From Ulota crispa (Eukaryota; Streptophyta; Bryopsida; Orthotrichales; Orthotrichaceae), in assembly GCA_963920765.1 (NCBI GenBank), contig OY987250.1, positions 124,001-188,000 on the forward strand: a stretch of 64,000 nucleotides of DNA, in the 5' to 3' direction. Below the pieces are notes generated by a model. The model was not told the origin of the DNA, did not search any database, and saw only the letters and a program-made list of their open reading frames with translations. Below, piece by piece: positions 18,039 to 51,444 of the stretch; position 1 is the stretch's first letter, and the number at the start of each line of letters is the position of its first letter. Position numbers and translations under genes: made by a program.

Positions 18039-18232
18039 TAAGGGTTACAAAGTTTTCAATAATCGTGACAAGCCAACGCCTGGTTTCTAGGATGAATCTG
18101 TGGTTACCAACTGTTGCAGGTGTGCAAGACTCTGCATCCGTTGCTTTCATTAATGCAAGGCCGGTTGAAAAACAGTGTAAAATGTTCAAAGCAAAATTTT
18201 GCTGACTGGGCCACCTAGAGAATGGGCTCGAG

Positions 18233-18923: not shown

Positions 18924-20288
18924 ATGAAGACGATCCAGGCGACGGAGACCATGGACCTGCCCGAGGGGGTGAAGGTGGAGATCAGGGCGAAGCAGATTAG
19001 GGTTTCGGGGCCTCGCGGCGTGCTCACTCGCAACTTCAAGCACCTCAATCTCGACTTCCAGCTGGTAGAGGGCGAGGGCGAGGGCGAGGGCGGCCGCAAG
19101 CTCAAGGTCGAGGCCTGGTTCGGCACCCGCAAGACCATGGCCGCCATTCGCACCGCCATCAGCCACGTGAACAACCTCATCACCGGCGTCACAAAGGGGT
19201 ACCGCTACAAGATGAGGTTCGTGTACGCCCATTTTCCCATCAACGCCAGCATCGGCGCAGACAAGGACAACATCGAGATCAGGAACTTCTTGGGCGAGAA
19301 GAAGGTACGCTTCGGATTCGGTGTCGCTCGGGGGGCTCGGGGAGGTTTTAGGGTTTTCGAGGTCGAAGGCCCGGTGTTGCAGAGCCGGAGACGGGCCACA
19401 GAGTGCCGATTAGGGCAATCTGAATGCGTAGAAATGCAGGGGTGGTGTTGGTCTTTCCCACGATGAAAGGCGAACGGCGGAGCTCCGGTGCTTGGCGTTC
19501 CCGGCCATACCCCATAAATTTGGAGCGGGATTAGGGTTAGGGCTTGGTGAGTTGTGCGTGGGGTGAGAATTTCGCATGGCTTGGCATTGTCTTGGCTGTG
19601 AGAGGTGAAGAATCTCGTCGCATGGCTTCTCCGGTTTTCCGCTGGTTTCCGCGGGGGAGAGCTGTTGGGTGCGGGGCTTTCACCTTTCTGTTGTGCCCAC
19701 TGGCTTGTGTGGAATTGACGGAAAATAGGTTCCCGAGGGGTTGGTCACGTCCGTCCATCTTTTGGTTTTTCCAAGTGCGCCAGCCAGGGTGCGCCAACGT
19801 TCGAGCCTTGTCCGCTTTGTCTGACCTAAGAACCGAGGGAGGGGGTTCGAAGCAGAGCAGTGCCCTCCCTCGGTTGTTGCGGAGAGTGATCACGTTGCAT
19901 GTGTTTTGTTGATCAGAAGAGTCTGAAGAGAATTGGAGTTGGTTTTGCAGGTGCGCCGAGTGGACATGTTGCAGGGTGTGACCGTGACCCGATCGGAGAA
20001 GGTCAAGGACGAGCTGGTTTTGGACGGGAACGACATCGAGCTTGTATCTCGATCATGCGCCCTCATCAACCAGGTATGCGGGGGGTTTGGGGTTTAGGGT
20101 TTCGGCAGTTTCAGCGACGAGCCAGCGATGAGCGATCGTGATGTTTGTTGTTTACGGAGGACTTTGAGAGGTGGCTGACATTGGTGGTGTTTGTTGGTAT
20201 CCAGAAATGCCATGTGAAGAAGAAGGACATCCGGAAGTTTCTGGATGGTATTTACGTGAGCGACAAGGGAACCATCGAGACCGAGTGA
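18924..20288 (+). CDS. RPL9: 60S ribosomal protein L9 (uL6), three exons
   Basis: Exons are 18,924-19,304, 19,951-20,073 and 20,205-20,288 (stop TGA), joining in phase 0 to a 195-residue protein, the usual length for plant RPL9. The first exon starts [18 protein letters not shown], contains the family-typical [15 protein letters not shown] and [11 protein letters not shown], and ends NFLGEKK. Exon 2 continues [12 protein letters not shown] and ends SCALINQ. Exon 3 encodes [22 protein letters not shown]. The protein is a structural component of the cytosolic large ribosomal subunit near the sarcin-ricin loop and stalk base. The start codon lies in GCCACCATGA, a near-ideal context. An EGEGEGEG run about residue 50-58 is a small local expansion of GAG/GGC codons. 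Introns of 646 and 131 bp contain TTAGGGTT telo-box-like words, which are common in ribosomal protein genes. Confidence 0.97.
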
Positions 20289-30211: not shown

Positions 30212-30719
30212 ATATGAAATTCAATGACTGGGTTTAGGATTTAGGATTATGCTTTAAGTGGCCATAGATGTACACTGACATGATTTCTGCTCATGTTTCT
30301 CTAGATTAATGCAAGGAGCGAGCAAAATATGGAAATACAGTAAATGCTGCCGACAAATAGGAGGATGACAATGGTTTTAGCATAGTAGAAGTAGTGCAGT
30401 GGATATGTGAAGATTGCCATAGACATTGACATGAGGTTTTAAAATTGTGATTCTACTTAATTTTGAAATTGCATTTGCAATTGTAATTCAATGTCTACAT
30501 TGCTTATTTATATGTGGTGGAACAAATTACGTTGCTAAGTTGCTTTAGTATTTGCCATTTAGGGCATCAATTGTAAACACTTTTTTTGGTTCAAAACACT
30601 TAAGCTGAAGTGCAAAAGATAACTTACAACTCTCCTACCTTCACTAAGATTCTTGCACTAACTACACATAAATACTCTAAATTGGTGTATATTACAATAA
30701 CATTACAAGGAAACGGCCT

Positions 30720-31690
30720 TTTTATGACTAGGCTTTTGAGTCCAAAAAGTCAGAAAAACCAAAAATTGACTAGACTTTCTGCAGTCATTTCGTAGTCATC
30801 CCGGTCAAGTCATATGCACAGATGACTGGCAATCATTTGGGTGGGCCAGTTGTTCCCAATGGAGTTTAGGGACCTCAATGGAGACTTGGCATGGGATTCT
30901 CAATCTCATGACTCTGTGTAGTAATGTTCTCTAACTGATATGACTATCTGCAGTCATAACCTATGACTACACGTAGTCATATCTAGTGGTTTAGGTGATA
31001 GTTGAACTCTCTTTAGTCATCAATTTCAATGTTTTTTAGGGTGGATCAATGACTATGGTAAGTCATTTTGGATTACATGATAACTTGTTCTAGTCAAGTT
31101 TAGGAGAGTTTAGGGGTTTAGTTAATTGTATGGTTAAGGATGACTTACACTAGTTAGATTTGTGTTAATTGTTACTAATACTAGTCATGACGGCAAAAAT
31201 TATGATTACATTTGGGTAGAGATGTGGTTTAGGGCCATATGACTATGGACAGTCATTATGGGATTCTAGTTATGACTAAACTTAGTCATTCTTGGCCAAA
31301 TTATGCATGGGTTGAGGGGGTTTAGTCTCAACAACTATGACTACATACTGTCATAGTTGAGTCATATTATGACTACCAACAGTTATTTAAACGTTTTTTG
31401 GTAGTGTTTGGGAGTGTGTTTTGTTAGTTTTGGGATTTAGGTTAGGACTAGAGATAGTGAGTTTAGATCCATAGATGACTACGTGCAGTCATAGGGACTC
31501 TTTAAAAGGGTTTAGACAATTGCATGGATATTACTCTAGGTAGCCACATATGAGAAATATGGCAAGGTAGGTTTGCAGTATTGACTACATGTAGCTATAT
31601 CTTCACACTATAGTGATTGCTGCCAGTCATACGACACTACTTGCATGCATTGAAGTGACTAACACAAGTCAGAAATTTGTACTCAAGGGG
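30720..31690. repeat. Left subterminal array of 16-bp TGACTA motifs
   Basis: At least nine copies of the form TGACTA-N4-(T/C/A)AGTCA or a one-base variant occur, for example TGACTATCTGCAGTCA, TGACTACACGTAGTCA, TGACTATGGACAGTCA and TGACTACGTGCAGTCA. Half-sites lie between them. Arrays of short motifs near the ends are where TNPA-type proteins bind in known CACTA elements, and this one likely plays that role. Confidence 0.8.
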
Positions 31691-32136
31691 AAAGGGTGGT
31701 TAATTCATTATAATAATGAAGTAACACAAGGTGGGAGGCCTCCATATACAAGCAAGGCCTAAACCCTAAGCTACCTCTTTAAGCGTGGATGCGAGGTATA
31801 TGAAGTGGACATGCCAAATCACAAACTGTCCAATGGCACCTATGGTCTCCCCCGGGGGGTCATCTAGGGTAACATGCTCATATAACTCAAAGCTATCGTC
31901 AAAGTTTTGAATTATGGCCAATGCCACGTGCTAAAGGAGTACATTTTTACCGTGCAAGAGCTTGTCTTTGTCCTTGTGCATTTTCCCCATAGCAACTATC
32001 TTGCCCTCCTTGCCTACCTTGTAATTGAAGATCTCATATACAAATCCCACTATAGGAACAACTATGTGAAAGACTTTAGCCTTCCCTAGAACAACTAATG
32101 AATCTGGTGGGATAGGCCGAATCTCATGGCCACTAG
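31691..32136. other. CACTA interior left of the LTR-like insertion
   Basis: Moderately GC sequence with a short plus-strand frame (31,907-32,089) and no recognisable product. No 5-bp duplication links the two edges of the neighbouring insertion. Confidence 0.4.
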
Positions 32137-35100
32137 TGTGAGTTCCAGATTCAACACCAGAAGTCTTGAATTCATTTTTTGTTTCACTTAGCTTTGAAAT
32201 TACGTTGATATAAGTGGAATAGCCATTTTTGTTGATTTGGATTAGTTAGACCAATAAATTAGCGGTACGCCATTTACCCTACCGCATTTGATCAGTCATA
32301 AAGAGTGACTTGGTGAGAATTAGTAGTTATTAGGGAGTTTGAATGACACACATACTAGGGGCTTGGGATCCCTTCTAAAAGTTCATACTAACCTAATTAG
32401 AGAGGATTAGTTTAGGATTTGCTACTAGGGGCTTGGGATCCCCTCCAAAAGTCCCCACTAACCTAATTAGAGAGGGTTAGTTTAGGCATAGATTAGCTAA
32501 GCCATGGCCAAGGGCCACATCACCTAGTTCACATTACAATATCAATTTGGTGCATCCATGCCCAAGGTTCCCAAGACTTTCCACTTTCCAAAGAGTGTGA
32601 TTCCAAGCAGTCAACCCTACTAGGCTACCAGTCAACCCCGGTCAAAGGAAGTTGACCAATGGCAATAAAATGCCACCAAAATTCATGAAAGAGTTTCTCA
32701 AGGATTTATGAAGATCCCCCAAGTTTCAAGTTGTTTCGATAGCAGCAAGACCTCAAACGATGACATCCATCCAATTTCAAGAAGGTGCACAACATCCAAT
32801 TTCAAGATTGTATCCATTTGGAGCCCAATTGATGGAAGCAATGAGTGTTTCCCGGCTCCTCCAAAAATGTTGGAAGACCTTAGGAAGTCAATTTCTCAAT
32901 TTGGTATGAATTCCCAATTTTAGATTTTTCATCTATCCACCCCTAACCCTTCATTCAAGTTTTCCGACGCCTCGTAGCTTGGAATTGGGAGTGTGAACAA
33001 CCTAAACCGGCTATTTTGGGTCCAAGGAATCCAATGCCACCATTTGTTTGTTGTTTGGAGCTATGCTCCAAAAGTTATGGCGAATTCATCCAGACTTCAT
33101 CCAATTTTGAGTTTTCTAAGATTTTAGGTAGATTTCAAGGGATCTATGGATCTCCTTGATAAAGGGCCGAGGTGTCCTCCCCTAAAAGTATAAAGGGAGG
33201 CCCACCTCCTCCCAAATGATCGTTCTCAGCACTTTCCTCATCCCTCCATGTTTTAGATCATTTGCCATCATACCTCATTGTCCTCTTTTTGGTTACCAAC
33301 ACTCACTCCCTTCCCTTGTGCTTAGGAAGAGAGTTGTTCTCTTTGTCTTTGGTCATACTAACCCCTAGGAAGTTGGATTACGATTGGCAATGCCGCTCTT
33401 CCATACTTCCTAGAAGTCCTAGTTCTTTTTCAGGCTGCTTAGTTAGTTGTCCTAACCACTAGTTAGAATAGACCCTCTCCTGAGGAGGATTGGCTTACCA
33501 CTGCCATTACCAAAACTCCTTTGCCAACCCAAGCCCTCCTAGCAGTTCTTTTGGAATTCTTCCAGCTCAGCCTTAGCTTGGCTAGTTGTCTTGATTCCTG
33601 AGGCAACTCTCTGAGAAACCGCTTTGCTCATCAATCCCATCAGCTTGAGGCCCTGCCTTGCTTACGGATTCCATCAGCTAGTGGCATTCCCTTGCACGCA
33701 GTCCCCTCAAGCTAGCCGCTTTGGCCCCTTCAATGTCCTATCTTGGCCTTAGCCCCTTTTCCCTCTTGAATCCAGCAAGCTCAGTCTCTCGGCTCACAAC
33801 CCATTTTCTATTTTGAGTCCAGCAGCTTAGTCCTCACAAGCTCACAGCCTCCTTTTCTATTCGAGTCGAGCAGCTCAGTCTCTTGAGCTCACAACCCATT
33901 TTCTCTCAAGTCCAGTTGCTCAATCCCTCTCAAATTCACGAGCTCAATCTCTATTCAAGTCTAGCAGCTCAGTCCTTCTCAAATTCACAGCTCAGTCTCT
34001 CAAGTCCAGCAAGCCCAGTCTCTCTCAAAGCTCGCAACCTAGTCTCTCTTGAGTCCAGCAGCTCAATCCCTCTTAGGTTCACGAGCTCAACCCTCCTTCA
34101 AGTCTAGCCACTCGGACTCTTGCCCTTTGTTCACAAGCTTAGTCTCACTCAAATTCACAAGCTCAGTCTCCCTTGAGTCCATAGCTCAGTTGTCCTTCGA
34201 GACCAACAGCCAATCTCTCTCAAAGCTTACGAGCTTAGTCCCTCCTTCGAGACTAGCAACCAATCTCTCTTAAAGCTCACAAACTCAGTCCCTTCTTTGA
34301 GTCCATAGCTCAATCCTCCCTTGAGTTCACAGCTCAATCCCTCTTGAATCTACCCTCTACCCTTGAATTCCCTACTCCGGCGCTCTGCCCTCGCATTCCC
34401 TAGGTCCGGCACTCTGCCTCACATTCCCAAGGTCCGGCACTCTGCCCCCGAGTTCCCAAGGCCCAACACTTTGCCCTCAAATTCCCTAGTTCGGTGCTCT
34501 GCCTTGCATTCCTAAGGTCTGGCACTTTGCCCTTGAGTTTCCAAGGCCCGGCACTGTGCCCTCAAATTCCCTAGTCCGGCATTTTGTCTCGCATTCTCAA
34601 GGTCCGGCGCTCTGCCTTGCATTCCCAAGGTCCGGCGCTCTACCTCGCATTCCCAAGGTCTGGCACTTTGCCCTTGGATTCCCAAGGTCCGGCACTTTGC
34701 CTTGCATCCCTAAGTTTGGCATTCTGCCCTTCAAATTTCCTAGTTGGTATCGGCCCTTGATTCCCTTTGGTGGCTAGCGATAGTCTCTCGCAAAGCCTGT
34801 AGCTCAATCTCTCGCAAGCCCGTTCAATCCCCGGAGTCAGACCCCCCTAGCCCTCACCCCCTGCAATACCCAACTGTGATACCTGGCCCGCCGGATCTCA
34901 ACCCCTCGACTTTGGGCTTTAGACCCTGCCTTGCCAAGCTAGTAAGCTCAATTTACATAATTTAGAATATTTTGACTTAAGGAAATTGGGTCCCTTAATT
35001 GGGCTCACCCACTTTTTGGCTTACTAATTATTTAATCAATTGTTCCAAAGCACGTAGAGATCTTTGGATTTGCTTAGCTTAGAAGTTGCTTTCATAGTGC

Positions 35101-35687
35101 ACATGGGAAACCGCAAACCATCATACATCCATCATTGACCAGATAAGAGGATAATCCTTGGCATTCGGGGTACAATTGTGACTAATCCAAGGATCAGTGT
35201 AATCCTCAACCTGTGTGGCTAGAAGCCGGTTTATGTTGTGATTATTCATCATAAGATAATTATATAAACCGGGCCATTCAAAAGGGTTAACTTAGTGACT
35301 CACTAGAGTGTTGTGATTAGTTGTCCCTAGGAGTAGAGCCACAACATGTTCAATCCTCCACCACCCTATTCCTACTTGCGCTGACATAGAGGCCGTTCAT
35401 GACCAAGCCATGGGGTATGTTGAACACCACGACAAGGTATGATTACTGATCTTTCCATTTCATTTAACCACGTCATCGACACGTGATATATCAAATAGAC
35501 CGTTCCCTTCTTTGCTCATCATTGTATGTTGTAGGCTTGTTAGTAAAGATCCATTGATTGGAAGGCATCTTTAGTTGGAAATCTACAACCAACCCCACCC
35601 TCTTGCTATGTTAGCCCAATTACTAGTTTTGTTAGAACTTGGTTGTGCTTGCATTCACTTCTTGAGGGGGAGGTTTGAGCACTCACA
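32137..35687 (+). mobile_element. LTR-like unit, copy 1 (3.55 kb), inside the CACTA element
   Basis: It begins TGTGAGTTCCAGATTCA and ends GCACTCACA, so the terminal 7 bp TGTGAGT/ACTCACA form a perfect inverted repeat in the TG...CA style of LTRs. A second copy lies at 52,577-55,887. A conserved TATA box (33,189) follows the words AGGGATCTATGGATCTCCTTGAT in both copies. The middle (33,760-34,760) consists of degenerate minisatellites (CAGCTCAGTCTCTCAAG type, then GGTCCGGCACTCTGCC type). No gag-pol, primer site or polypurine tract adjoins it, so it is best read as a solo LTR. The 5-bp flanks (ACTAG, TCCTT) do not match. Confidence 0.65.
33760..34760. repeat. Two minisatellites inside LTR-like copy 1
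   Basis: 33,760-34,350 repeats a unit near AGTCCAGCAGCTCAGTCTCT. 34,370-34,740 repeats a unit of about 35 bp centred on CCAAGGTCCGGCACTCTGCC. Neither family appears in the equivalent place of copy 2. Confidence 0.8.
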
Positions 35688-35930
35688 TCCTTTCCTTTCC
35701 GTTGTGCCATTTGGAATTCTACTTCAAGGGGTGTGGAAGGCCTCTCCAAATCTTTGGCCTACAATGATAAAAACCATGTAATGAGTTTAGGAACTTGGTA
35801 GAAAGAGTTCATACACAACATTCATACAATTTTTAGACCTACAAGCCATACGAGACAAGCTCCACAAACATTTTCAAGACCAAGACAATATAGTGAATAA
35901 GGTACTTACTAAGGTGTCTTGCACATCCTC
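35688..35930. other. CACTA interior right of the LTR-like insertion
   Basis: Short stretch between the LTR-like unit and the TNPA-like gene. No feature recognised. Confidence 0.4.
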
Positions 35931-36750
35931 CTTTGTGCGCCCTCTAGTTGAAGGAATCTGTACCATGGAGCAAGAAGCTTTCAGCCTGTTGGCTTCCTAA
36001 ATCTTCCTCTCGCTCTCAATGAGGGTGCAAAGGTTGGCCCAATGGTCTGCTTGCACCAACTCGGGCATCTTGTAACCCGCTAGCATGTGCCTCTTCATTT
36101 GGTACCTCTTGGTCTTGAGCTGCTCCTTCAGCTCAAAGTTGAAAGCATCGTTTGAGACGCGGCCTAACCCACCCACGTAGTCAAAGGTGCTATCCACGCA
36201 GTCTTTCACCGCCAACAACATGCCCTTGCTACAACGGTCATACTTATCCACACTGAATCAATATCTTGGGTATGACCTCTAAGACATTGAAGCCACCTAT
36301 AACGATTGTCACCCTTGGGTACCCCATCTGCATTGACCTCCACTATATTGCAAAGGTCAATGGTAGTCTCTCGCAGCGCGGCTTGGTCCATCTAGGCCTT
36401 CAAGGCCCTACCCCTCTTCCCGTGTTGATCTCCTCCAAGAGGCCGTATGCTTCCTCCTTCAAGCAATGGAGCCCTTTGTTGAGCTCCACGTTGCTGTAGC
36501 AATTTTTGCTTTTGCAAAATCTCCAATTGCTTTTGCAACAACCACATCTCAAGGTCCAGGGAATCCGGATCCTGCAGCTCCACCTCCACAGGCTCCTCCT
36601 TTGGGAAGGACTTGTCTTGAAACACCCAGTGAGCAATTGCCGGCTGCGCATACCCCATGCCCTCCTGAATGTAGTCAAATTCCTCATCCACCTCCTTGTC
36701 ACCCATCTTCTTCAGCGTCCTCTGCAACGTCCCACTTAGAAACTTGGATG
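35931..36750 (-). pseudogene. TNPA/Ptta-like (Transposase_24-type) protein gene, broken
   Basis: Reading leftward from 36,727, a glutamine-rich helix (KQLEILQKQKLLQQ) is followed by an in-frame TAG. The frame then resumes with VEVNADGVPKGDNRY and a YKMPEL-to-WANLCTLIESE stretch, after a frameshift near 36,250. A TAG then precedes EANRLKASC and a GTAAGT donor. The order (N-DG-P-G-N motif, basic middle, W-x2-L-x5-E, N-R, R-G) resembles the plant transposase family Ptta/En/Spm (Transposase_24), the TNPA-like DNA-binding partner of TNP2. It points away from the TNP2 gene, so the two would be transcribed divergently. The family call is by pattern only. Confidence 0.5.
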
Positions 36751-36829
36751 ACCTCTACACTCAAGCCTATTAAATACAATTCCTTTAATGTGACAAGATA
36801 TCAAATGGTTTAGGCTTTAGACAAAGCAA

Positions 36830-37060
36830 TCCAACAAAGTCACTGCAACATGCCTAAATACTGACTATAGGAGGTCAGCAAATGTTTAAGCAACCTACAG
36901 ATGTGACTAACCAGAGTCCAAAAGTTGGTGGCCAAAATGAAGCAATGACTACACCGAGTCATATGATTGCCCTTTGAAGTGAATCAATGACTATGGCCAG
37001 TCATATGACTAGCCTAAATGAATCAATGACTACACCTACTCAAGACAGCAGCGCTCTTGC
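36830..37060. repeat. Internal cluster of 16-bp TGACTA motifs
   Basis: Contains TGACTACACCGAGTCA, TGACTATGGCCAGTCA and TGACTACACCTACTCA in about 100 bp, just upstream of the minus-strand TNPA-like gene, where they could act on its promoter. Confidence 0.7.
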
Positions 37061-37225
37061 AACAAGTAATACCATTCACGGAAATCCCATTGTCAATAAT
37101 GAACATGGCCCCGCAATAGTCAATTCTCCATGACATCAATGCCAACTTGAAGAACAAAGAATCCATCCCACCCCTAAGCCCCTAGGTTTGACTAGCAACA
37201 CCAAAAACTGAAAAAAGGGGCATCA

Positions 37226-38345
37226 ATGAGCCTTGCCCTCCATAGCAGCTTCCAATTTTTTTTTAAACACCCAGCTGTCCTTTGTGAGCCAATTGATGGA
37301 CTAGCACTCTGAATCCACACAAATTGAGAGCCTCAATGGCCTTCCCTCATAGCAACTTCCAAATTTTAAAAAAGAAACACCCGCTGCCCTTGTGAGCCAA
37401 TTGATGGACCAACACTCTGAATACACACAAACTGAGAGCCTCGATGGCCTTGCCTCACAGCAACATCTGATTTTTTCTTAAAAAAACACCCGTTGCCCCT
37501 TGAGAGCCCCTTGATCGACTAGACTCCAAATACACACAAACTAAGAGCCTTGATGGGCCTTGCCGTCTCGACACTTTCCTTTTCTTTTTTTTTAAAACAC
37601 CCAGTTGCCTCTTGTGAGCCCTTTAATTGACCAACACTTCAAATACACACAAAATGAGAGCCTTGATGGCCTTGCTTCACAGCAACATCCAATTTTTTCT
37701 TAAAAAAACACCCAGTTGCCCCTTGTGAGCCCCTTGATTGACTAGACTCCAAATACACACAAAATGAGAGCCTTGATGGCCTTGCCATCTTTTCAACTTC
37801 CAATTTTTTTAGAAAAAACACTCGCTGCCCTTGTGAGCCAATTGATGGACCAGCACTTTGAATACACACAATTGAGAGCCTTGATGGCTTTGCCTCACAG
37901 CAACATCCAAATTTTTCTTGAAAAAACACCCGCTGCCCCTTGTGAGCCCTTTAATCGACTAGACTCCAAATACACACAAACTGAGAGCCTTGATGGGCCT
38001 TGTCGTTACAGCACTTCCAATTTTTCTTTTTAAAACACCCAGTTGCCCCTTGTGAGCTCCTTGATTGACCAGCACTCCGAATACACACAAAATGAGAGCC
38101 TCAATGGCCTTGCTGTCTCTTCAACTTTCACTTAAAAAAAAAAAAACATTTGCTGCCTTTGTGAGCCTTTTGATCGACTAGACTCCAAAAACACACAAAA
38201 TGAGAGCCTCAATGGCCTCGGCTTTATAGCAACTTCCAAATTTTTTTAAGAAAAACACCCGCTGCTCCTTGTGAGCCAATTGATGGATCGGCACTTTGAA
38301 TACACACAAACTGCAAGCTTTGATGGCCTTGCAGTCACAACAACT
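37226..38345. repeat. About ten copies of a 110-bp satellite, alternating two variants
   Basis: The word GAGAGCC-TGATGG recurs at 37,326, 37,434, 37,543, 37,656, 37,766, 37,874, 37,983, 38,094, 38,202 and 38,313, a period of 108-113 bp. Each unit has an A/T tract followed by ACACCCGCTGCCC. Two unit types differ in the segment after GTGAGCC: CAATTGATGGACCAGCACT or CCTTGATCGACTAGACTCC. From the second unit onward they alternate, so the array is built of dimers of about 219 bp. The minus-strand open frames here are repeat-derived. Confidence 0.9.
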
Positions 38346-39380
38346 TTCAACCCTAAGAAAAAACACAAGATTCCCCCTCCAAGCTTCTCACAAGCGGTAA
38401 TGAGGACTACATTTTAGGGCTTCACAAAGAAATCCAATGGAATCAAGTGATATATGTAGGCATACTTTGCTTCTTGGTGCAAGAGGCTTTTTGAGGGCGT
38501 TGTGTTGTATTTAGAGCTGGATCCTGGAACTCCTTTGTGGTGGTGGTCCTCCTTTGATCCTCGAAGCTTCAACAACATTGTTAGCTAAAGTTACTCTAGT
38601 CTTGTGCAAAATGATTACAGTGATAGATGGAAGGAGAGCAATTCTTTGGAAGATTTGCACTATATCACTATCCTCTAGGTTTGCTATAGCTGTAAACAAT
38701 GATTCTAACAAGGAAGTCATTGATTGAGAGAGATTGGACCTATAATGTGCGATTGAGAGGGCCAAGACGCTATGGGCGTTGACGTCCACCGCTCTCCAAA
38801 TGCTCTTCCAATCCGAGCAACCCTAATTCCCTCAACTTCTCTTGGTTACATTGAATGTTGGTGTTGTGGAGTTGTTCACAGATAGAGGTCTCTCCGAGCT
38901 CAGCACAAATAGCCAGCTTGAAGATTGTGCGTAGCTATGCCAAGCTTGAAGATTGTGCGTCGCTCCACTAATCTGTCCGAGCTAGATTCCAACCTAATTT
39001 GGTACTAGTACCAACTACAAGATCCACAATCTAGCTTCTCGGCTCTCTAGCTCAGCGGCTTGGCGGCCCTGCGTCCCTCAGCCTTAAAGTCCAGGTACAT
39101 CCAATTACAATCCACCCTACACACAAACATAGAATCCCAGCAGTGAGCCCAATGCAAAACCCCGTCTAAATCAAGGAAGAAATAAATGTTGATCCCAACG
39201 GGTAGCAAAAATCAAGATGAAATCATCCCTAAACCCAAAAATCTTTGCAATGACTCTCAATTGCCTCACCTCTTTCACAACCCTCCCCGTGCTTGGTTGC
39301 AAAAGTCTAGCTTTTCTCAACTGCGCAAGTCTGTGTAGCGTGCAACGGCGCAATACGGTGCAACACGGTTGAGATCAAGA
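38346..39380. other. CACTA interior with small duplication
   Basis: AAGCTTGAAGATTGTGCGT is repeated in tandem at about 38,915-38,962. Minus-strand open frames 38,511-38,789 and 39,171-39,353 have no known motif. They may be outlying exons of the TNPA-like gene, but I see no firm splice connection. Confidence 0.4.
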
Positions 39381-39384
39381 GCTC

Positions 39385-41340
39385 GGCTCTTGAGGGTGGC
39401 GTTCCAAGGACTTAGTCGCTCCGTGCCTGTGTGGCCCACCCCACAGGTGCCTCCTCTTTTCCCATTGGTTGCATTCCATGTCATTCCATGCCTTTATCTA
39501 GTATGAGTGCGTCTTGTACATATGGGAAAAACTAACCCCAAAGTCTTTCAATTATAGGCCTTATTAACCCACAAATGCCCTAAGGTGCAAAAAGTGAATT
39601 TATACAAAATTTTGAAGTTGATTAAATATCATCAAATCATAATGTTAACTAGTTTTTAGGTTTTAATACAATTTTGCAATGAAGGTTTATTTGAGATTCA
39701 CTAATTTGAGTTCAAAATGAATATGGATTATTGTTTGTTCAACATTTTGTTAAATGGTCTCCACTTCAACCTTGACTTACTAGATGATGGATGATATTGA
39801 AATTGAGCCCTAACAGCACTTTTTCTTTCATAGAAATCTACATTGGAAATTATCCAAAGCAATACATTTTTAAAGTTCTTATAAGAACAACAAAATGGGC
39901 ATTTTATGACTTTGGATTATGACTAGCATGAGTCATTTTGAGGTATACATGACTCTCAATAGTCATAACTTGCAGTCATAAAATGGCCATGCTATTCTAA
40001 TTAATTAGAATCCCTAAATTCATTAAAGTTAGACATGTCATGACTCTAGTCATATATTGTTGCTAATGACAAACTTCTGAGATTCAATTGGAGCAGGTGG
40101 CATCAAACACGCTTGGGAGCTTAGTTGGTGTGGGTGGCATTCTAGGGACTTAGTTGCTACTTGCGTGCGTGGCCTGCCCTTCTAGGCGCCCCTTTTTTTC
40201 CCGTTGGTTGCATTCCATGTCATTCAATGCCTTCATCTAGTTTGAGTGAGTCTTGTCTACACGTGAAAAGCTATCATTCAATGCCTTCATCTAGTTTGAA
40301 GGCGTCTTGTCTACACAAGAAAAGCTAACCCCAAAGTCTTTGAATTACAAGCCTTATTAACCCCCAAATGCCCAAAGGTACCATAGGTGCATGTGTACAA
40401 AATTTCAAAGTTGAATTAAACCTCATCAAATCATAACGTGTAGCTCTTATTTTCTAATATAAGTTAGCATTGAAGGTTTTATTGAGAATAAAAAATTTTA
40501 GGTTAAAAACAAATATGGATTGTAATTGCCTATTCAAAATTTTGTAGAATAGTCTCCACTAGAAGTTTCAGTTTCTTGATGTTGGAAGATTTTGAAATTG
40601 AGCCTTAAATGCAATAGACCTTGGATAGAAACCAATATTGTAACATATTTAAAATATATATAATACTGGCTTCTAGAAGCCCTAAAATCATTAAAGTGAG
40701 GTTTGCCATGACTGCAGACTCGTACTGTTGATAGTGACAAAGTTTTGAGATTTGGCTGCTACAGGCTATATGGAGGCACGTTGGAGAACTTAGTTGATGT
40801 GAGTGACGTTCCTCGCCTCTGTCTTTTTGTGCATTTGTGCCCCCTAGGTACAACCTAAATTCAGATTGATTGTATTGTACGCCATATATTCCATGCCTAC
40901 AATTCTAAGTGCTTCATGTACACTTGTAAAGATGTGACCCTAAACCCTTTGAATTACAAGTTTGAACACGTAACTGCTGAAAGTCACCCAAAGTGGGTGT
41001 TTCCCAAAAATTGAAGTTTAGTGAACCTCATGAAAGCATAATTTTCAATCTAAATTTTCAAATAGAAGTTTGTATTGAAGGATATCTTGAAAGCCTCGAA
41101 TCTAAGTTTGAAAATGAACCTTAAATATTCTCTTATTGAAAATTTTAGACCATGGTGTGCACGGCAATCTTAAGTTTCCTAATACTAAATGAAATTGAAA
41201 TTGAGACTTAAATGCACTAGAGCTTGGAGAGAAATCCATGTTAGAAATTGGGAATTTTTTTTTATAATAGTATCTCTTGAAAACCATGAATTGATTAAAA
41301 GTTATACATGTCATGAGCTGGAACCTATGTTTTTGCCAAT
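39385..41340. repeat. Three diverged tandem copies of a 0.6-0.8 kb unit
   Basis: Shared landmarks recur in order: a CTTAGTTG/CTTAGTCG start, GTTGCATTCCATGTCATTC, AACCCCAAAGTCTTTGAATT, CTCATCAAATCATAA, ATTGAAATTGAGCC and AGAAATC. They occur near 39,400-39,840, 40,115-40,630 and 40,780-41,240. Copy 2 carries an extra 46-bp duplication (CATTCAATGCCTTCATCTAG, twice). TGACTA motifs sit at the end of copy 1. No coding frame is conserved between copies. Confidence 0.75.
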
Positions 41341-41879
41341 GATAGACTTCTTGAATTTGACATATGAAATGAGGATTGGAACAAGCAAAGTCACCTTAGC
41401 AATTCTAAGAACTTTGTGTGAAGGGAGTATCATGTTTGAAATAGCAAGTCATATTGGTGTGCTTTTTTTTTCCATGGAATGTGTAACATGTTAAACTTAT
41501 AGTTAATTACATGAACAAAATTTGAGGAAACATGATAATTTTTATGAAATACTTGGTTGTATGATTAGTTTCATGAAAATGCCTAAAATCGCTAAGGAAG
41601 GCTTTGGGCATTTAAGGGTTTAACCAAAGTTGTAGGAGAGGGGTCCAACCTAATGAACCTTATTAGCATGGAGTGACTATTCTCCTAAAATAGTGCAATG
41701 AATTGAGATTGTCTCACAAAGGGGGGTATCAAACCAATATTTATGTATTATTGGTAAGAGTTCAGGATAAATTTAAGGAAATGCTGGAGCTTTCCATACA
41801 TATAACAAAGAAAAGAGCCCAACAATATGCCTTGAATATGTATTGAAACCCATGTTTGTGATAACACCAAAGAGTGTGA

Positions 41880-42020
41880 ATATATTGCAATATGACTTGA
41901 GCTAGTCATGCAAAATTGTAAATAGTTAATTTGTGACTATATATAGTCAAATGGGTGAAAATAGAATAATAGATGACTGCACATGGACAAGATTGATTGT
42001 GTGTAGTCACAAACTATTAT
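41880..42020. repeat. TGACTA motif cluster before the TNP2 gene
   Basis: TGACTTGAGCTAGTCA, TGACTATATATAGTCA and related half-sites lie within 120 bp, immediately upstream of the first TNP2 coding segment. Confidence 0.65.
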
Positions 42021-42185
42021 TGCCACTGTACACTGTGTCTTGTTGTACACACTATAAAGTGACATACAGCCCCTTCATATTAGAATTTACTTGCTATAGT
42101 TTGTGCCTTACTAATAATTCTTTTTTTCATAATTGTATGAGAAGGTCTGGGCATCATCAATGGGTCATCCCTCCAATGTACTAGA

Positions 42186-42420
42186 GAAGGACTTGGAGTT
42201 ATGGAGAAATGAAGAGGAACAAGCGGACCGCAAAAACCTCCCAAGATTCCCTTGTCCTTGCAAGGGGTGCATAGGTGGGATAATCCAAGTTTGAAATACT
42301 ATATGCAAGTACCTTCATATCTATCAACGCAACCCAATGCTTTAAAAATCCGTTTTGGTACGTGCCACTTCCATGCGTTGCATTCATTGTTTCTCTATCA
42401 GTATTTGTTATCTAAGTCTT
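42186..42420 (+). pseudogene. TNP2 N-terminal transposase-associated domain (fragment)
   Basis: The frame reads DLELWRNEEEQADRKNLPRF, then PCPCKGCIGG, a stop, then HIYQRNPM and a further stop. CPC-x2-C followed by a short H-containing helix is typical of the transposase-associated domain at the start of CACTA TNP2 proteins. It is the first of several plus-strand TNP2 pieces spread over 8 kb. Confidence 0.6.
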
Positions 42421-42481
42421 TATGTCAACTTTGAGTATCGTAGTCTAGATTTTGTACATTCTCAAAGTCATTTGTGTATAG

Positions 42482-42778
42482 GTAGCAACTGAGGCAGCAT
42501 TGGATGATGTGCTTAAAGATCATATTGTTGGACAATATTCTATCAATCGCAGCAACTTAACAAGTCAAGAGTTACAATTGATGAACTGGAAACCTAATTA
42601 TCTTGACGGGAAATGGGGCCCCTCTCATATTCCAAGTAACACCTTTCACGTATTAGAACCGAGAGTGGATAGTGAAAGTATCTATGTTTTCATTCATGGG
42701 GTGGGGTCTCTATATCATGGGTGCTGTAAAGGCAGAGGAGTTGTTACTGTTTGTGGAGTGATTGTTGACCCAGTCTAA
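42482..42778 (+). pseudogene. Unassigned open frame within the CACTA gene region
   Basis: A 92-codon frame (LTSQELQLMNWKPNYLDGKW) follows a possible acceptor (GTGTATAG at 42,474). I do not recognise the domain. It could be an exon of the transposase or a captured fragment. Confidence 0.35.
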
Positions 42779-43419
42779 GTTTAGGATCATATAAGCCTTG
42801 GATCTACAATTTGTGCACTATGCCATGCAACCTACAGCTAGTGTGTACCAAGACGGAGATGTAGAATATGGCAATGTAGCTATATTCATCAATAGTTCCA
42901 TGGGATGTGAGGATATTAGCAATGTCATTTGGGAGTACTCAAAATTGCCAAGGCCTTAGAACACGTCTGAATGGGAATACACAATGACCATAGCATCCCA
43001 TGACACTACTAGCGAGGAGGAGCTATTTGCGCACTACCCTATAAAGTAGTTAGATGTAGAGGGTTTAGGAAGTTATTTGTGTTTGGAGTTCTTCCCTCCT
43101 TGCATGATAATTTGCAAAAGCCTTTGTAGATAATGACTGCAAACGGTCATTGCTTCAACTAATAACTGATTCATCGTTGTTGAGTTGAAAGGAGCGCTTT
43201 GAAAACATGCAAGGTGTCTTGCTGCGATTGTGCATTGCCGACTAAAATTGTCTTTGGTCTTGATTTTTGCTCTTTGGATTTTTAGTCTTCAGTCTTTAAG
43301 TCTTCATGTTTTAATAAAAATAATGAGGAAAATCACAAATAACAAGTCCTAGAAAAGTTGCAACCTTCTATCTAATACCACAACTGGCTCAAAAATCCAA
43401 ATGCTAAGTGTAATAGCAG

Positions 43420-44260
43420 TTTGAGAAGGTCTTCTAACCTTCTAACACTCTTTCAAATTTCAATTCAATCTAAAGTATTGTCCAAAAGTTATACGGATTC
43501 AAAGTAGAGGTTCTTTTTCCACCTTACAAACTAAACACTGCCTTTGAAAACCTCTATAACTATTGTTCTACAAATCATCCGTAGAAACCTAATATCAATT
43601 TGAAAAGATAATATCACTGACTACAACCCGTAAAATTTCTACTTCAAAATGAAACTTTGTCCAAAAGTTCAAGTCAATCAAAGTGTAGGTCTTAATTTTT
43701 TAGAGAGCACCCAAACCCCCAACTTCTACATATTATAACTTCTTCAATAAGACTTCAAATAGAATGATTGAAAACAATTTGGAAAGCTAAGACAACAAAC
43801 TATCATTCCTAAAATTTTGAAACAAGACTTTCATACTGTCCGAAAGTTGTAGTTCTTCAAAGTTTTGGCCTTCTCATAACAAAAAACAGCCACCTCCAAC
43901 TCTTCACATTTCCATAACTTTCTCCTCTAAACTTCAAATCTCAAGTTTAAAGACTTTCTAAAAAGCTAAGACTAAGATAAACTCTCTCTTCAAATTATGT
44001 TGCAAAATGATATACAAGTTATAAGCTATGATTTGTCAAAGTCTCAACCTTTCTTCATAGTTTGGCTTTTTGACTTCAAAATTCAAACATTCATAACTTT
44101 TGCATCACAACTCCAAATCAAACTTGCAAATTAATTTTGAAAATTTAATCACACAAGGAACAATCCCTTCAAATTTCACTTCAAAATCATGTATATACAG
44201 AAAGTTCTCTCATTTCAAAGTTTTGGGATATCTCTCTTTTTCCCCCCCAACACTCACTCA
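43420..44260. repeat. Degenerate tandem repeat, period about 180 bp
   Basis: A phrase like TTGTCCAAAAGTT-N10-TCAAAGT-TAGGT recurs near 43,480, 43,656, 43,839, 44,016 and 44,200. Between copies lie CATAACTT-T-TCAAATC-type words. Copies are strongly diverged and there is no coding frame. Confidence 0.6.
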
Positions 44261-45306
44261 CTAACTTCCAATAACTAAGGAATCTCCCTCCATGATTTCG
44301 ACCCTATCTAAGGTAGGAAGGTAGGGCACATCAAACCATACCTCTCTCTATCCTAATCCCACCATAGATGCCAAACCCTTTTTTCTTTCACACATTTTCT
44401 ATTGACTTTTAAACTTTTAGTATTTTTATTCAAACAAAGACAAAATATATGAGCCTTCCAAAATATTTAGATAAACATATGAAAATGATTAAATTACAAA
44501 ATAAACACCAGCGTAAAGTGGCCACGTGCTCTTGCGAGCATATAATAGCGTAAAAAACTTGTCTTCAGTCGCCAAGTTGTGGACTTGGTTGATTGGAGAA
44601 GCGGTTGTCTTTAGCCGCTCGCCGGTCTAGGTTTGAATCTCATCGGACTCGTCGAGTGGTGATGGCGACTCACGGCTTGGCAGCTAGTGAGGCAGGAAAT
44701 TGATTCAGCCAACCCGCTACCTACCCCTCTGAGCTGTGCATGTGACAAGACGGCGCAGCGCACTGGAATCTATGGCCGCTGCGCTGTCACCAAACTGTGG
44801 TTTTTACCATGACCACATTTTTTACCACAACTGTTGATTTATTGAAATCAACACAAACATAAATAAATAACGAGTATCTACATGATGGAGATATCTCTAT
44901 CAAGACATCGTAGTTACATTTTGAAATTTACGTGACTACACTTAGTCATATTAAATGGATAATAGACTCATGTACTAGTCATATTTGCCAAATGACATGA
45001 CTGATTCTAATCATAACTATGAGCATATTTTCACATAGTTCTTTAAAATGAAAACATTATGGAGGAATTGAGGAGGAAGAATGATTTTTTTTGTTCTCTA
45101 TGTAGTTTATTAGACTTGCATTGACTATTGGATTAAGCAATGATAGATCTAGAATTTCTAAATGATTGTGGTTTCATTGCAAACTTGCACAATCCTATTG
45201 GTTAAGAAAATGCCTATGACTTGTGGGTAGTACATAAATGAGTATGTACTATACAAATATGCAAGTGCACCATATTGTCAATGTTCATAATTTTGATATG
45301 TAGAAC
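44261..45306. other. CACTA interior, GC-rich patch and motif cluster
   Basis: 44,520-44,800 is a GC-rich patch with a GGTTTGAATCT word that recalls a Pol III B box (see rejected items). TGACTACACTTAGTCA at 44,934 and TGACTGATTCTAATCA at 44,999 continue the motif series. No gene. Confidence 0.4.
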
Positions 45307-47492
45307 AATCCTCAGCAATATAATTTTGAATGAACATGCCAGTCTAGACGTTGGGGATGACATTGTCAATGATGTCACCAGTGAGGGAACTGAGCTGCAT
45401 GGCAATTTGGATGCAAATGGCATAGATGAGGTGGACGCAATACAAATGATCGCAAAGTATTTTCAACGCTTTGATAATCTTCCACATCGCGAGGATGATA
45501 TTGATTGTGATGATCTAGAATGTGCAGTAAAGCTAGAAAATGAGGCAGTGCAAAAGAGCATGGGTACAAGTGAGGAGGCCAGAGACACAGAGGATCTATT
45601 CAAACAATCTAGGATCCTCTTATACGCAGGTTCAAAGTTGAATCATCTGGTGTCTATACTCTTGCTCTTGAATTGTTTCTTAGTCTTTGGAGTTTCCAAT
45701 GCATGTGCAAACGAATTGCTGAAACTATTGAAAGAGCTACTTCTTGAGAACAACACCTTACCTAAATTGTATTATGAAGCAATGCGATATTTGTCCAAAC
45801 TAAGACTCTCCTATGTCTCCATCTATTATTGCAATAATGGTTGTTGTTTGTTTCGACTGGGGTTGAAGGATGCAGTGGAGTGCCCGACGTGTGGAGAACC
45901 TAGATACATCCTAAGAAAGCTTGGACGTCCCAAGAAAGTTTTTTGTCATTTTCCACTCATCCCTCGATTGCAATGCATGTATCAATGCAAGAAATTGGCC
46001 AAGTTGTGTACATGGCATGCCACTCGTACGAAGGAAGGGAGCAGCGTGGAGTGTGTGCTAGATTCAAAAGCTTGGAGGCACATAGACACCATGTATCTAA
46101 AGTTTGCAACGGAGCCAAGAAATATTAGGCTTGGATTGGCATTGGACGGTGTGAATCCATTCTCTGAAACATGTCTCTTAGTCACTTGACTTGGCCAGTC
46201 ATATTATTGAACTATAACTTGCCCCCATGGTTAGTGACAAAGAGGTTCTTCTTGATGTTGTTGCTCATAATCTCAGAGAAGGAAAGCGTTACATTTAGCA
46301 ACATCAATGTCTATCTGGCGCCGCTGCTAGAGGAACTAGCAGATCTATGGAAGGGTGTTGAGGCAAAAGACATGTCCGTTGTTGGTTCAAACAAGGATTT
46401 TTTAGTTTGAGCTGTACTCATGTGGTGCATCCACGATTTCCTGGCTTATGGGCTAGCGTCAGAGCAAGTCGCAAAGGAGTACAAAGGTTGCCAAGAGTGT
46501 GAGCCTAGCGTGAGGAGTTGAAGATCTACCGCCCTTGCAAAAATGTCTATCTAGGGCATTGCAAGTACCAATGGAGAGATTACTAGCCCATGTTTTATGG
46601 AATACTGTGTTTAGGAACTAAAGACCATTGAAGTGAAAGAGGAAACTGTTTATGTAATATGTACAATTATTGTAAGATTTATAGAATAATATATATTATA
46701 GTATATTCAACTCAGAGCATCTAAAAGCATTGGTTAGTATGAGTTAATTTACCCTAAGTAAATAGCCTAGGAAAATAAGAGTTGGGGAGATTCAAAGTCT
46801 TGCTTGTTGCTCTTTTATTTAAATTGATTTAAATACATGACCTATAATAGGGAGGTATTTGAAATTGGTCCATAATGATTGCTACCAGGACAATGGTCAT
46901 GTATTTTGTATGTTTATTAATGAGTGTCATGGATCTTAGCATGTACATCCATAAACCATAGAATGAGGATTTGTTTTTGAAGAATGAACTGAATATGAAT
47001 ACATTGGTAGAATGTATCTCTTCTATGATGTAACTCTACTTAGAAACTAAAAGAGTGAAGTTACAAAAAAACATATGGTAATGAAAATATGCTTTCCATA
47101 GCCGCTTGTATTAGAATAGAGTTACATCAAATGTAGTACGTCAAATTTGTAGCCACAAATGAAATTCCTTATTCACTAAGCTGTACACTTTGAACTTATA
47201 ATGATTGATCTCCCTAAGCAGATACCTTAGAAGAGGGCATCCGTACCAAGGTATGAGATTCGATTTCAATGGAACCATGGAGGCAAAGTTACCTCCAAAG
47301 TCCATGACAAGGGCTGACATCAAGAAATATGCACTGCAGAGGAGCAATTGGTTTAGGGCATCAATCCTAAACAAACCAAATGCACCAGGTGACCCAATTC
47401 ATACCACCGATGTGAAACGGTTGACAATCTTCTACAGCCTTCCATATTGGGAGGTAATTCTTGAACACATTGCTGAAGATGACAATGTATAA
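45307..47492 (+). pseudogene. TNP2 transposase catalytic region (Transposase family tnp2), frameshifted
   Basis: The best block, 45,640-46,189, reads ECPTCGEPRY, then a basic FCHFPLIPRLQCMYQCKK stretch, TWHATRTKEG, SKAWRHIDTMYLKFA and RNIRLGLALDGVNPF. This is the order of the tnp2 domain, whose RLGLATDGFNPF contains a proposed catalytic Asp. The frame then shifts and resumes with WPVILLNYNLPPWLVTKR and YLAPLLEELADLWKG (46,183-46,410), MWCIHDFLAYG and YLGHCKYQW. After a gap of about 0.6 kb with no similarity it continues to 47,205-47,492 (HPYQGMRFDFNG, LPYWEVILEHI). Stops, frameshifts and perhaps introns separate the blocks. The protein would have cut and joined the CACTA ends. Confidence 0.8.
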
Positions 47493-47599
47493 CAAGTGCA
47501 CAATACACCTTTTACTTGTATACGTCATCATTGGTTAATAGTTCATTTGTAGCACATGGAGAGGAACAGTAACTCTTATGCATCCACAAGAGTGTCACC

Positions 47600-47870
47600 A
47601 TTAATGAGGAAGTAGAGAACTTGGCTGACTAGTGACAATCATCAAATTATAGATTATGACTGCCACAAGTGCCAACAATATATGCAAGTGACTAGAACCA
47701 ACAGCATTGTTGGTGGGAATGACTAGGGGATAACTCAGTGACTTGCCGTAGTCATATCCCTAAAGATAATGACTACCAAGAGTTGTATTTTTGGATACCA
47801 TGACTACAATGAGTCAATTGTATGGATGATATGACTACCTAAATACATGTACTCCATCCAAATGACCCTA
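47600..47870. repeat. TGACTA motif cluster within the TNP2 gene
   Basis: TGACTAGTGACAATCA, TGACTTGCCGTAGTCA, TGACTACCAAGAGTTG and TGACTACAATGAGTCA lie within about 190 bp in a non-coding gap, probably an intron, between transposase blocks. Confidence 0.65.
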
Positions 47871-48095
47871 AACTCTAAACCCATAAGCAATGATAGTGCT
47901 CATTGTAAAGGATAATTTACTTCAAAATTGTAAATTACATGGATGACTAAACAATGTTTATGCATAGGGAAGTTGTCTAAGGTTTGAATTTAAAAATAAC
48001 GTCATGTTGGATACGTTGCCTGAACCTTACTGCATAATGTCTTTGCAATTGTACCACGCGGTGGTACTAATGAGACATAGTTGCCTCAACAGCGT

Positions 48096-49095
48096 CTTCT
48101 AATTAGACACGTGCTGGACCCCATGCACTGTGAGAAGAACTTATGTGAGAATATATTGAAGACCATTTGGGGATCCAAAGACGCTTTGAAGGTTTGTTTT
48201 GACATGTAGGAGGCTGGGATTAGATCTCATCTTCACCCAATGCCAGGGAGGGCACCTAGATCAATGGTGTTACCAACTGCACCGTACGTATTGACTAGGG
48301 CGGAGAAGAATACATTCCTTGGTATCTTGCAAACCTTGAAGACGCCAACAAACTACGTTGGGCAGTTGGCAAAGAGAGTTACCATGGATGGGGAGTTAAG
48401 GGGCCTGAAATCTCATGACCATCATGTTCTACTGCAGCAAATATTGCCACTATGCGTGAGGACGTTGCTGAATGGAGATGTCAAGTTGGCCATTATAAAA
48501 GTGAGCCACATACTTGTGCAGCTATGCACAAAATCTATAGACCCTTCATTGATGCTAGCGCTGTTGGAGGAGATTGGTGAAGCAGTGTGCATGCTGGAGA
48601 AGGTATTTCCACCGGCGCTCTTTGACGTCATGACGCACATACCAATCCACTTGGTACAACAATTAGATATATGCGGACCAATTCACCCAAGGTGGATGTA
48701 CCATATAGAATGGTATTTGAAAGTATTGAAGGGCTATGTGAAATAACAAGCCCAACCCGTTGGTTCCATGGCGCGTGGGTATACAATGGAGGAGGCATTG
48801 GGATTTTGCACGGAGTACATGCAAAACTATAGCGCCACAGAACGGAGAGTTTGGGATGATGGAGAAGAACTTGCAATGAGTAGCAAGAGGCCGAAAGGAA
48901 ACGGGCGGCGTATAATCCTAAGCCCATCAATGCGAGATTGGATCCACGAGTTTGTGTTGGAGAACGCAGAGCCTCTCCAACCGTTAAGGGAGTCAGTGAT
49001 TTCATGCCTGCATGTGTTCACAAACACCTACAATTATATCCAAGTCTATATTGCACCTTCAAAGCTTTGTAAAATGATGAAGCCCTTATATACCT
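48096..49095 (+). pseudogene. TNP2 C-terminal part with DUF4218 domain
   Basis: One frame from about 48,108 reads LDPMHCEKNLCENILKTIWG, then a TAG at about 48,207, then LKSHDHHVLLQQILPLCVRT, IHLVQQLDICGPIHPRWMY and HIEWYLKVLKGYV to a stop at 48,746. These are hallmark DUF4218 motifs, and the MH-EK-N-C-N stretch is the link from tnp2 to DUF4218. A following frame (48,768-49,095) continues YTMEEALGFCTEYMQNY, the usual next segment. This is the least damaged part of the transposase. Confidence 0.85.
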
Positions 49096-49129
49096 AAACC
49101 ATGAGTTTTTGTATTTGAGGACTTGTAGT

Positions 49130-49290
49130 AGGGCATTCACTACATGTAGTGAAGGATAAACCTAGACTATGACTAATGATAGTCATACTACTGCATGTAG
49201 TCATCACCCTAGTCAGAGGGTCCAATTTTTGTACTCATGACTACCCCTTTATGACTGCATGCAGTCATATGCCCCGTGACTCACCCCCCT
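49130..49290. repeat. TGACTA motif cluster after DUF4218
   Basis: TGACTAATGATAGTCA, a CTGCATGTAGTCAT half-site pair and TGACTGCATGCAGTCA lie within about 100 bp. Confidence 0.65.
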
Positions 49291-49443
49291 TCATTTGCTT
49301 TCCGCTTCAATGGAAATAGCTCCTTTGAAGTCAAGTTTGAATGTAATTGTCATTGTTAGTACTAGAAGTAACCTTTTTCAAAATGTCAATGCAAAATAGA
49401 CATACTAATAGAAGTTAGTGCGTAGAATGTTAATGAGTACGTA

Positions 49444-50430
49444 CAAGACATGGCAGCACAAGGAAGAGCAAGAGCGCAACATCGGCAAGAGAACCGGCGG
49501 AGGACCACCCCACATCCTGTAGGCATGGAGGAAGTCACGTTTAGACCATGGCTAGCTCAGGCGATGGAGTTGAAGATACAAGCACAAGAAGAAGTGCATA
49601 TGGATGTCTAGGTGCTAACGAAGCCACTGTCCATGTATGCAAAGTCATATTGCGCCATGTACGCGTATGGGAACCACATCTGAACGTGATTTGTAGAGGT
49701 AGACCTGATTACGTGTGACAGCGGCATAGCATCCACTTTTTGTCAGTTGCGCTGATCAAGCCATAGGGACTAGAATATGAGAACTGCAGATTTGGAGCAC
49801 ATCAGGTAGGTAGACCAAATTTTAGGCGTTGGCTACGGCCATTTTCAAATCAACGTGTTGGACTGCTCGTGGATGAAATTGAACATGCGAGGCCCTAATG
49901 CAACAATGAAGGATGCGTATGGGTTTACCATAGTGAGGTTTGAGCGTCTCATTCCTCGCTTTGCAAATTCATTTGCGTTTCCCTTACATGCACGTCAGGT
50001 TTTTTTCTTGGACGACTTGAGCAATGCGGGGTGGAAGGTGGTTTTACATATAGAGCCTAGAGGCATGAGAACAAGGGCGGCAGGAAATGACAGCCAAGAA
50101 GTTTGACACTTGAGCATTGGTGATGGAGGTGCCTTTGGAAGGACAACACAAGAGGAACAGATGCATCAGCCATGCACTACTGTAGACTCTTTGGCAGAAG
50201 GCAGGGTCTTGACAAGCGAGGAAGTGAGAGCAGAGATGGCAACTGCAGTAGATATTGAAGAAGAAGATGAAGAAATGGGAGCCAAAGAAGGAGGGGGGAT
50301 GCCAACAATTTTGACGAAGGAGGCAACAAAGCGCAAGAGGAGGATGTTGGCAACAACTATGAATGAGCCATTCACCAATAACATGGCACATCAAGATGAT
50401 TTACATGGGCTTGCAACCATATTGCCATAG
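49444..50430 (+). pseudogene. TNP2 C-terminal DUF4216 region and acidic tail
   Basis: Pieces MYAYGNHI and VEVDLITCDSGIASTF (about 49,630-49,740) match the segment before DUF4216. The frame 49,850-50,106 reads VLDCSWMKLNM, YGFTIVRFERL, ARQVFFLDDL and GWKVVLHIEPRG, the classical DUF4216 pattern. A following frame (50,110-50,430) is acidic and lysine-rich, as CACTA transposase tails often are. Several stops interrupt the first half. Confidence 0.75.
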
Positions 50431-50884
50431 CAAGAACATGGTTACAACCCCATGTAACACTTCACATCAAATTAGGAACGTACACGTACTTAGTTCCTAT
50501 CAAGTGCACCCGGTTTTCTTCCCCCACCAGGTTTCCAAATTTTTCCTCTAAGAAGGGGTTTTTTCACACATGTGTACGTTGTATCACTTTCCATTACTAA
50601 ACCCAACAACTTCGGCCGCACCTGGTTTGCTAAACCCAAACCCTCTTTTGCAGCAAAAACACAGCGCTGAGATGAGCTCCACAAGATGTATGTAATGGGC
50701 CCTGGAACTTATAGATATCACATAGCAAACCAACACTGTGAGTAGCAAGAATTAAATTTATGACAAGTAGAGGGAGAAAGTAAAATGTTGTAAATGGAAA
50801 TCAATCAAATGTCAATATTCCATAGGGTGCAACCCATAGATGACAAACAAGCTTTAAGTATAAACTCATGTGAATAACCATACA

Positions 50885-51125
50885 AAATTCTTCCTAAAAC
50901 CCTAAACCCCTAAACCCTAAGAAGATAAGACTCCTGAACCCTGAGCTTGATGAAATCTAAAAACACCAAACCCCTAAACCCTGAACACTCCAAAACCTCA
51001 CAAATTTTTGATGTGTACAATATTGTATCGCATAAACCAAACATGCACATAATGTTGTCCCTAAACTAGACAACCCCTAAACCCCCACCTCCACCCTCTA
51101 AACCGCCCACTCCAAACCCAATAAA
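50885..51125. repeat. Telomere-like CCCTAAA words in CACTA right end
   Basis: Scattered AAACCCTAAA, AACCCCTAAACCC and ACCCCCACCTCCACCCTC words form a degenerate CCCTAAA-like stretch in the right subterminal region. It is not a regular array. Confidence 0.55.
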
Positions 51126-51444
51126 TAAATGAAAAGCCCTGAATTACAAGGTCCCTAAACCCAATGTGGCTTGGGCCCTCCCTCACCCAAATTGTTATAT
51201 GACTAGAAGCAGTCATGTAGTCAAGAAACCTAGTCATAACCACTCACTAAATCCTGAGAACTTGTTCCCAATGACGTTCCCCTTGAGGTCCACAAAAAAT
51301 CTCAGTCACATTAACAATGTTATGACTAGAGCATGACTATGACTAGGAGCCCAAAACCACTTAACTAGTGGGTTGCCCATTTCAACCAAATATGACTACA
51401 CACTCATAGTGCCCTAGTCATAAAAAGGCCTTTTCCTTGTAGTG

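Follow-up and report, generated by a model that had tools for sequence, protein, structure and literature searches.

Why does a transposable element of the CACTA type carry one short palindrome along its whole length and not only near its ends? The question is raised by a stretch of 64,000 nucleotides of Ulota crispa (Bryopsida; contig OY987250.1, positions 124,001 to 188,000 of the forward strand), hereafter the window, in which the 16-bp quasi-palindrome TGACTA-N4-TAGTCA recurs throughout a CACTA element at 30701-51444. From comparisons of sequence, we give a little better than an even chance to the reading that these palindromes are predicted dimer-binding sites for a protein encoded by the element itself, used in transposition at the ends and in self-regulation inside.

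Number, spacing and spread of the palindrome

With up to two mismatches, the palindrome is counted 35 times in the window (about 30 recurrences had been claimed in the first-pass annotation), whereas 100 dinucleotide shuffles give 3.02 on average and never more than 7. All 35 are within the element and none occurs in the 43,256 flanking bases, so that neither the flanks nor shuffled sequence reach the density of the motif in the element. The enrichment is restricted to the 4-bp spacer, in agreement with the fixed 16-bp length proposed earlier: the same 35 palindromes are found with that spacer and only 0 to 5 with every other spacer from 0 to 12 bp. Fifteen palindromes are in the left 1.1 kb, 19 in the interior, and one in the right 350 bp; for the interior, 60 first-order Markov simulations give a mean of 1.07 and a maximum of 5. 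The coding stretches (about 3.4 kb, set by homology and open frames) contain none of the 35. Genome-wide, with one mismatch at most, there are 2485 matches to the palindrome vs. 359 to the pattern read backwards. The genome also contains 56 matches to the chlorophyll a/b-binding family, which mark the host as photosynthetic and most probably a plant. In another copy of the element, A2 (C9:3763296-3779958), 43 palindromes occur, with a flanking A at 30 and a flanking T at 29 of these sites. Among 57 neighbor distances (17–130 bp), 25 are of 30–33 bp, where a uniform distribution would give 2.

The clusters that had been placed at 30.7-31.7, 36.9-37.0, 39.9-40.0, 41.9, 44.9, 47.6-47.8, and 49.2 kb are all present. 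The one placed at 46.2 kb is not: no palindrome with two or fewer mismatches is found there, only a single TAGTCA half-site (at 46179) inside the Transposase_21 coding stretch. At 51.2-51.4 kb, one palindrome accompanied by half-sites stands in place of a cluster of palindromes. Both terminal repeats do contain a half-site, as had been noticed.

Conservation of the arms and recurrence in related copies

Matches to the left end (at least 38), the right end (at least 44), and the transposase (at least 48) are found in the genome, all lower bounds; 12 of the left-end matches are on contig C11 (6.3 Mb, 2.3% of genome bases). Evolution seems to have kept many palindromes while the surrounding DNA changed. 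Between the left end of A2 and those of three subfamily-B copies (with ten arm bases counted), the arms are changed at 32 of 435 positions (7%) and the other bases at 569 of 1962 (29%), and in each of the three comparisons, which all share A2, none of 899 circular shifts is as low. In subfamily C, a comparison for 5 of the 11 scanned left ends (positions 404-900) gives an identity of 0.805–0.870 for the arms, 0.281 for the spacer, and 0.485–0.503 for the rest, values in which arm conservation is favored by the possibility for the aligner to anchor on the motif. What one copy of that subfamily (C10:1954040-1967078) shares with the window is largely its outermost 404 and 326 bp, plus three short internal stretches. 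It has no domain above cut-off, and it has 22 palindromes with two internal clusters.

In lineage D, one copy (from C7:13624426 onward) holds 13 sites within a left-end piece of 1.5 kb, a pair of sites about 0.25 kb before the match to the SET domain and another 0.14 kb after it, a pair past its DUF4218 homologue, and three further sites to the right (the right end was not found within the piece fetched). In A2, a cluster lies about 0.1 kb downstream of the SET match. The intron of the transposase gene, predicted from homology of the exons and a conserved GT, contains sites with at most two mismatches in all six D copies fetched. Measured from the donor, the offset is +277 in five of the six; A2 has +280 and the window +287, although the introns of the window and of a D copy (L071) barely align (score of 277.5; shuffled sequences average 251.6 and reach 291.5). 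The site counts of the six D introns are reached by 59, 2, 0, 1, 1, and 1 of 2000 shuffles; at one mismatch or fewer the comparison is meaningless for two of them (L073 and L074), with an observed count of 0.

Eight small relatives (105–269 bp), our own pick from a listing of paired ends, have one or two palindromes each, with identical flanking triplets in five (L078, L079, L081, L082, and L083) and different ones in three. In the more distant family E, the palindrome is absent from both pieces of 1.4 kb.

The conservation between subfamilies and the recurrence in lineage D suggest that the palindromes do something. A dimeric binder is suggested by the fixed spacer, the dyad symmetry, the conservation of the arms, and the turn-related distances, and a binder encoded by the element by the presence from A through D with absence from the E pieces seen. 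Sites at the ends often follow one another at 30–33 bp, roughly three turns of the helix, and such arrays would help to bring the two ends together for the tnp2-type transposase. This binder may also occupy the clusters upstream of the SET-domain gene, between that gene and the transposase, and in the intron; this internal binding could control the transcription or the chromatin of the element, through autoregulation or a VANC-like anti-silencing.

Origin of the internal clusters and choice between readings

Autoregulation, or else growth of the element by internal copying of end sequence, had been put forward in the first-pass annotation. The sites dispersed beside genes and in the intron fit the former, and only the 39.9 kb cluster speaks for the latter. 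When the sites are masked in A2, the cluster homologous to that at 39.9 kb resembles the ends (E values of 0.004 and 0.015) and the remaining internal clusters do not (no match at E < 0.1); apart from that one cluster, a general origin by copying from the ends is rejected on this comparison. The 39.9 kb cluster is a degraded fold-back like the small relatives (from an alignment without shuffled control), and a 42-bp tandem repeat (36935-37036) makes up part of the 36.9 kb cluster, so that internal copying explains some clusters only. The same two clusters favor an explanation in which the sites serve for transposition only and the internal clusters, without a function of their own, were left behind by small relatives that had inserted and by local duplication in tandem. 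That the density of sites is highest at the left end, and that the tests of arm conservation in subfamilies B and C cover the left end only, fit it as well. Against it stand the recurrence of sites in lineage D, within the corresponding intron and at the corresponding borders of genes, and the result of the masking for the other A2 clusters; we hold this explanation possible but rather unlikely.

In En/Spm, TNPD binds the terminal repeat and TNPA the subterminal sites. This division argues against the alternative that the tnp2-type transposase binds the palindrome itself, with the internal sites as decoys limiting transposition; the half-sites in the terminal repeats and the further half-sites in the right end would suit that alternative, which we consider improbable. 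Very improbable is the binding of a host transcription factor, with sites acquired by the element as promoter parts, since, despite the similarity of the arm TGACT to WRKY or bZIP sites (which contain TTGAC or TGA[C/G]TCA), the palindrome is fixed with its 4-bp spacer, without occurrence in 43 kb of flanks or in the two family-E pieces from the same host.

Besides the sharing of A2 and the anchoring of the aligner, several points weigh against sites for a self-regulating dimeric protein. Two internal clusters (36.9 and 39.9 kb) have plain copying origins. In the C copies, the gain of the arms over the rest is modest at positions 150-404 (0.825–0.95 vs. 0.766–0.814), and in L028 the arms are hardly better kept (0.825 vs. 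0.814). In the left ends of 15 young A copies, the change is 0.050 in the arms, 0.098 in the spacer, and 0.057 in the rest; the arms are not clearly better kept (a value as low is reached in 152 of 929 circular shifts), and purifying selection within subfamily A is unsupported. With one mismatch at most, only four of the six D introns have sites, the highest of the shuffle counts (59 of 2000) belongs to one of them (L069), and the six represent one lineage. Once the class of 28–35 bp is left out, a phasing of 10.5 bp is not significant (p of about 0.08). Contig C1 has a perfect motif some 7 kb away from a gene pair of family E. Finally, the second gene of the element encodes a protein without a Pfam family, so that its DNA binding is only predicted, and the name TNPA-like that we use for it is our own, drawn from the place of the gene and a reading of its sequence.

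Genes of the element and relation to known systems

The right end of the element carries CACTA (CACTACAAGG), the left end (CATTACAAGG) is one base off, and related copies have CACTA at both ends; the flanking triplets in the window are TAA/TGA, with one mismatch. These termini, a tnp2-type transposase, and subterminal repeats (the 15 palindromes of the left 1.1 kb) place the element in the CACTA superfamily. The gene order is the second gene (−), a SET-domain gene (+) in the middle, and the tnp2-type transposase (+) (Table 1, where the Transposase_21 and DUF4218 matches are from frames read with X at stops). Clusters had been claimed before two transposase genes and between exons: sites do lie beside genes, only one of which is a transposase, and they do occur in at least one intron, that of the transposase.

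Table 1. Features of the CACTA element in the window (palindromes with two or fewer mismatches)
Feature	Coordinates	Strand	Remarks
CACTA-type element	30701..51444	+	20.7 kb; terminal repeats, Transposase_21, DUF4218, related copies; stops and frame breaks interrupt the coding parts
Left terminal inverted repeat	30701..30730	+	TGACTA half-site
Right terminal inverted repeat	51415..51444	-	Half-site
Left subterminal array	30909..31671	.	15 palindromes; arms conserved vs. subfamily B; positions match in C
Lone two-mismatch palindrome	34771..34786	.	May be chance
TNPA-like second gene, exon-like stretch (broken)	36000..36313	-	More open pieces at 36392-36754 and 31931-32245 (-)
Internal cluster	36862..37042	.	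5 palindromes, 39-42 bp apart; directly upstream of TNPA-like coding pieces
Degraded fold-back	39887..39988	.	2 palindromes (39920, 39950); similar to small relatives
Internal cluster	41893..42009	.	3 palindromes; upstream of SET gene; D has a pair likewise placed
CPCxxC-type stretch upstream of SET	42181..42330	+	
SET-domain stretch (broken)	42633..43043	+	
Internal cluster	44933..45013	.	2 palindromes; between SET gene and transposase
Transposase_21 (tnp2) stretch, two frames	46058..46551	+	PF02992, E 5.1e-29
Internal cluster	47626..47816	.	3 palindromes; transposase intron, donor near 47453
DUF4218 stretch of transposase gene	48522..48839	+	E 4.6e-29
Internal cluster	49137..49267	.	3 palindromes; downstream of DUF4218 stretch; D has a pair at the homologous place
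Right subterminal palindrome	51200..51215	.	Half-sites continue up to 51420

Tandem repeats occur inside the element as an array of units of about 108 bp (or 219 bp) near the second gene (37230-38350) and as overlapping repeats of 23 to 94 bp at 33771-34744. A segment of about 1.7 kb between the SET-domain gene and the transposase (43180-44906) is present in the window copy and absent from A2. Outside the element, 18001-20000 is G+C-rich (0.545) in a mostly A+T-rich window.

In the window the SET copy scores 17.1 bits, under the Pfam cut-off of 22.4, and the cut-off is passed by A2 (28.5 bits) and by all three relatives scanned (L088, L076, and L089, with 28.2–31.2 bits). Between A2 and D, the nonsynonymous divergence (dN) of SET is 0.17 and the synonymous divergence (dS) 1.46, a ratio of 0.12; for A2 and E2 the ratio is 0.32, and in the other four pairs dS is saturated and the ratios are unused. 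Judged from these codon changes, the element-encoded SET-domain protein is constrained between A and D. In L088, the CPCxxC-type stretch before SET has a match to Transpos_assoc, below cut-off. Uninterrupted SET frames of 197 amino acids occur in the distant family E (L088, 857-1447; L089, 16-606 on the minus strand).

The second-gene exon is 50% identical between A2 and D, with a proportion of nonsynonymous differences (pN) of 0.34 and of synonymous differences (pS) of 0.83. The genome has 67 matches to SET and 66 to the second gene, merged to 56 and 58 loci, respectively. A second-gene locus lies within 20 kb of 45 of the 56 SET loci, head-to-head in 44, and is lacking in 11; the proximity expected by chance is about 0.8% per locus. 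Two second-gene loci on contig C11 (C11:3925835 and C11:3957304) score identically, as do two SET loci (C11:3919642 and C11:3951151), which suggests a segmental duplication.

With such a chromatin-enzyme-like gene on board, the element may mark and regulate itself. We infer a binder, an effect of its binding, an activity of the SET protein, and a cooperation between the two. In a tentative extension, to which we give low credence, this CACTA lineage would have a targeted chromatin system: the TNPA-like protein would mark the non-coding DNA of the element through the palindromes, and the SET protein of the element would modify histones there. The action of SET would keep the element expressed or hidden, and from lineage to lineage the binder would change along with its motif.

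The soybean element Tgmt*, of the En/Spm type of CACTA elements, has asymmetric, palindrome-forming subterminal repeats (PMC2613891). CACTA-type termini, a tnp2-type transposase, a further gene product, and subterminal repeats are common to it and to the present element. Unlike En/Spm-type elements with TNPA/TNP1 sites, one fixed 16-bp palindrome occurs here, also at gene borders and in an intron (the comparison with Tgmt* covering its subterminal repeats), and a SET-domain gene is aboard together with a second gene without Pfam family. VANC21 binds a short motif and occupies introns, intergenic parts, and the non-coding termini of its own element, and the presence of a short motif, partly in tandem repeats, across the non-coding parts of a whole element is a likeness to VANDAL/VANC (PMC5735166). 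The superfamily and the motif are different: the transposase found here is Transposase_21, not the MuDR-type transposase of VANDAL. Binding and methylation loss are experimental for VANC, whereas for the present element they would be predictions from sequence. The TnpA protein of Spm activates Spm, and the activation correlates with demethylation (PMC10398659); with VANC, it offers a functional analogy for the proposed self-regulation. In Phytophthora, HarbingerS and MuDR transposons carry a SET histone methyltransferase gene (PMC12730594). The likeness to those is a SET gene on a transposon; here, unlike there, the transposon is a CACTA element of a plant-like genome and SET is head-to-head with a second gene. 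Among the matches listed, no title or abstract opening names a SET-bearing CACTA element; PMC8616336 contains both terms.

If the self-regulation proposed here is true, sequence-specific self-marking would extend beyond VANDAL and would have arisen also in elements of the CACTA type, in this case one with a chromatin-enzyme-like gene aboard. The motif, the matched lineages, and the small derivatives would then be a testbed for how transposons escape silencing.

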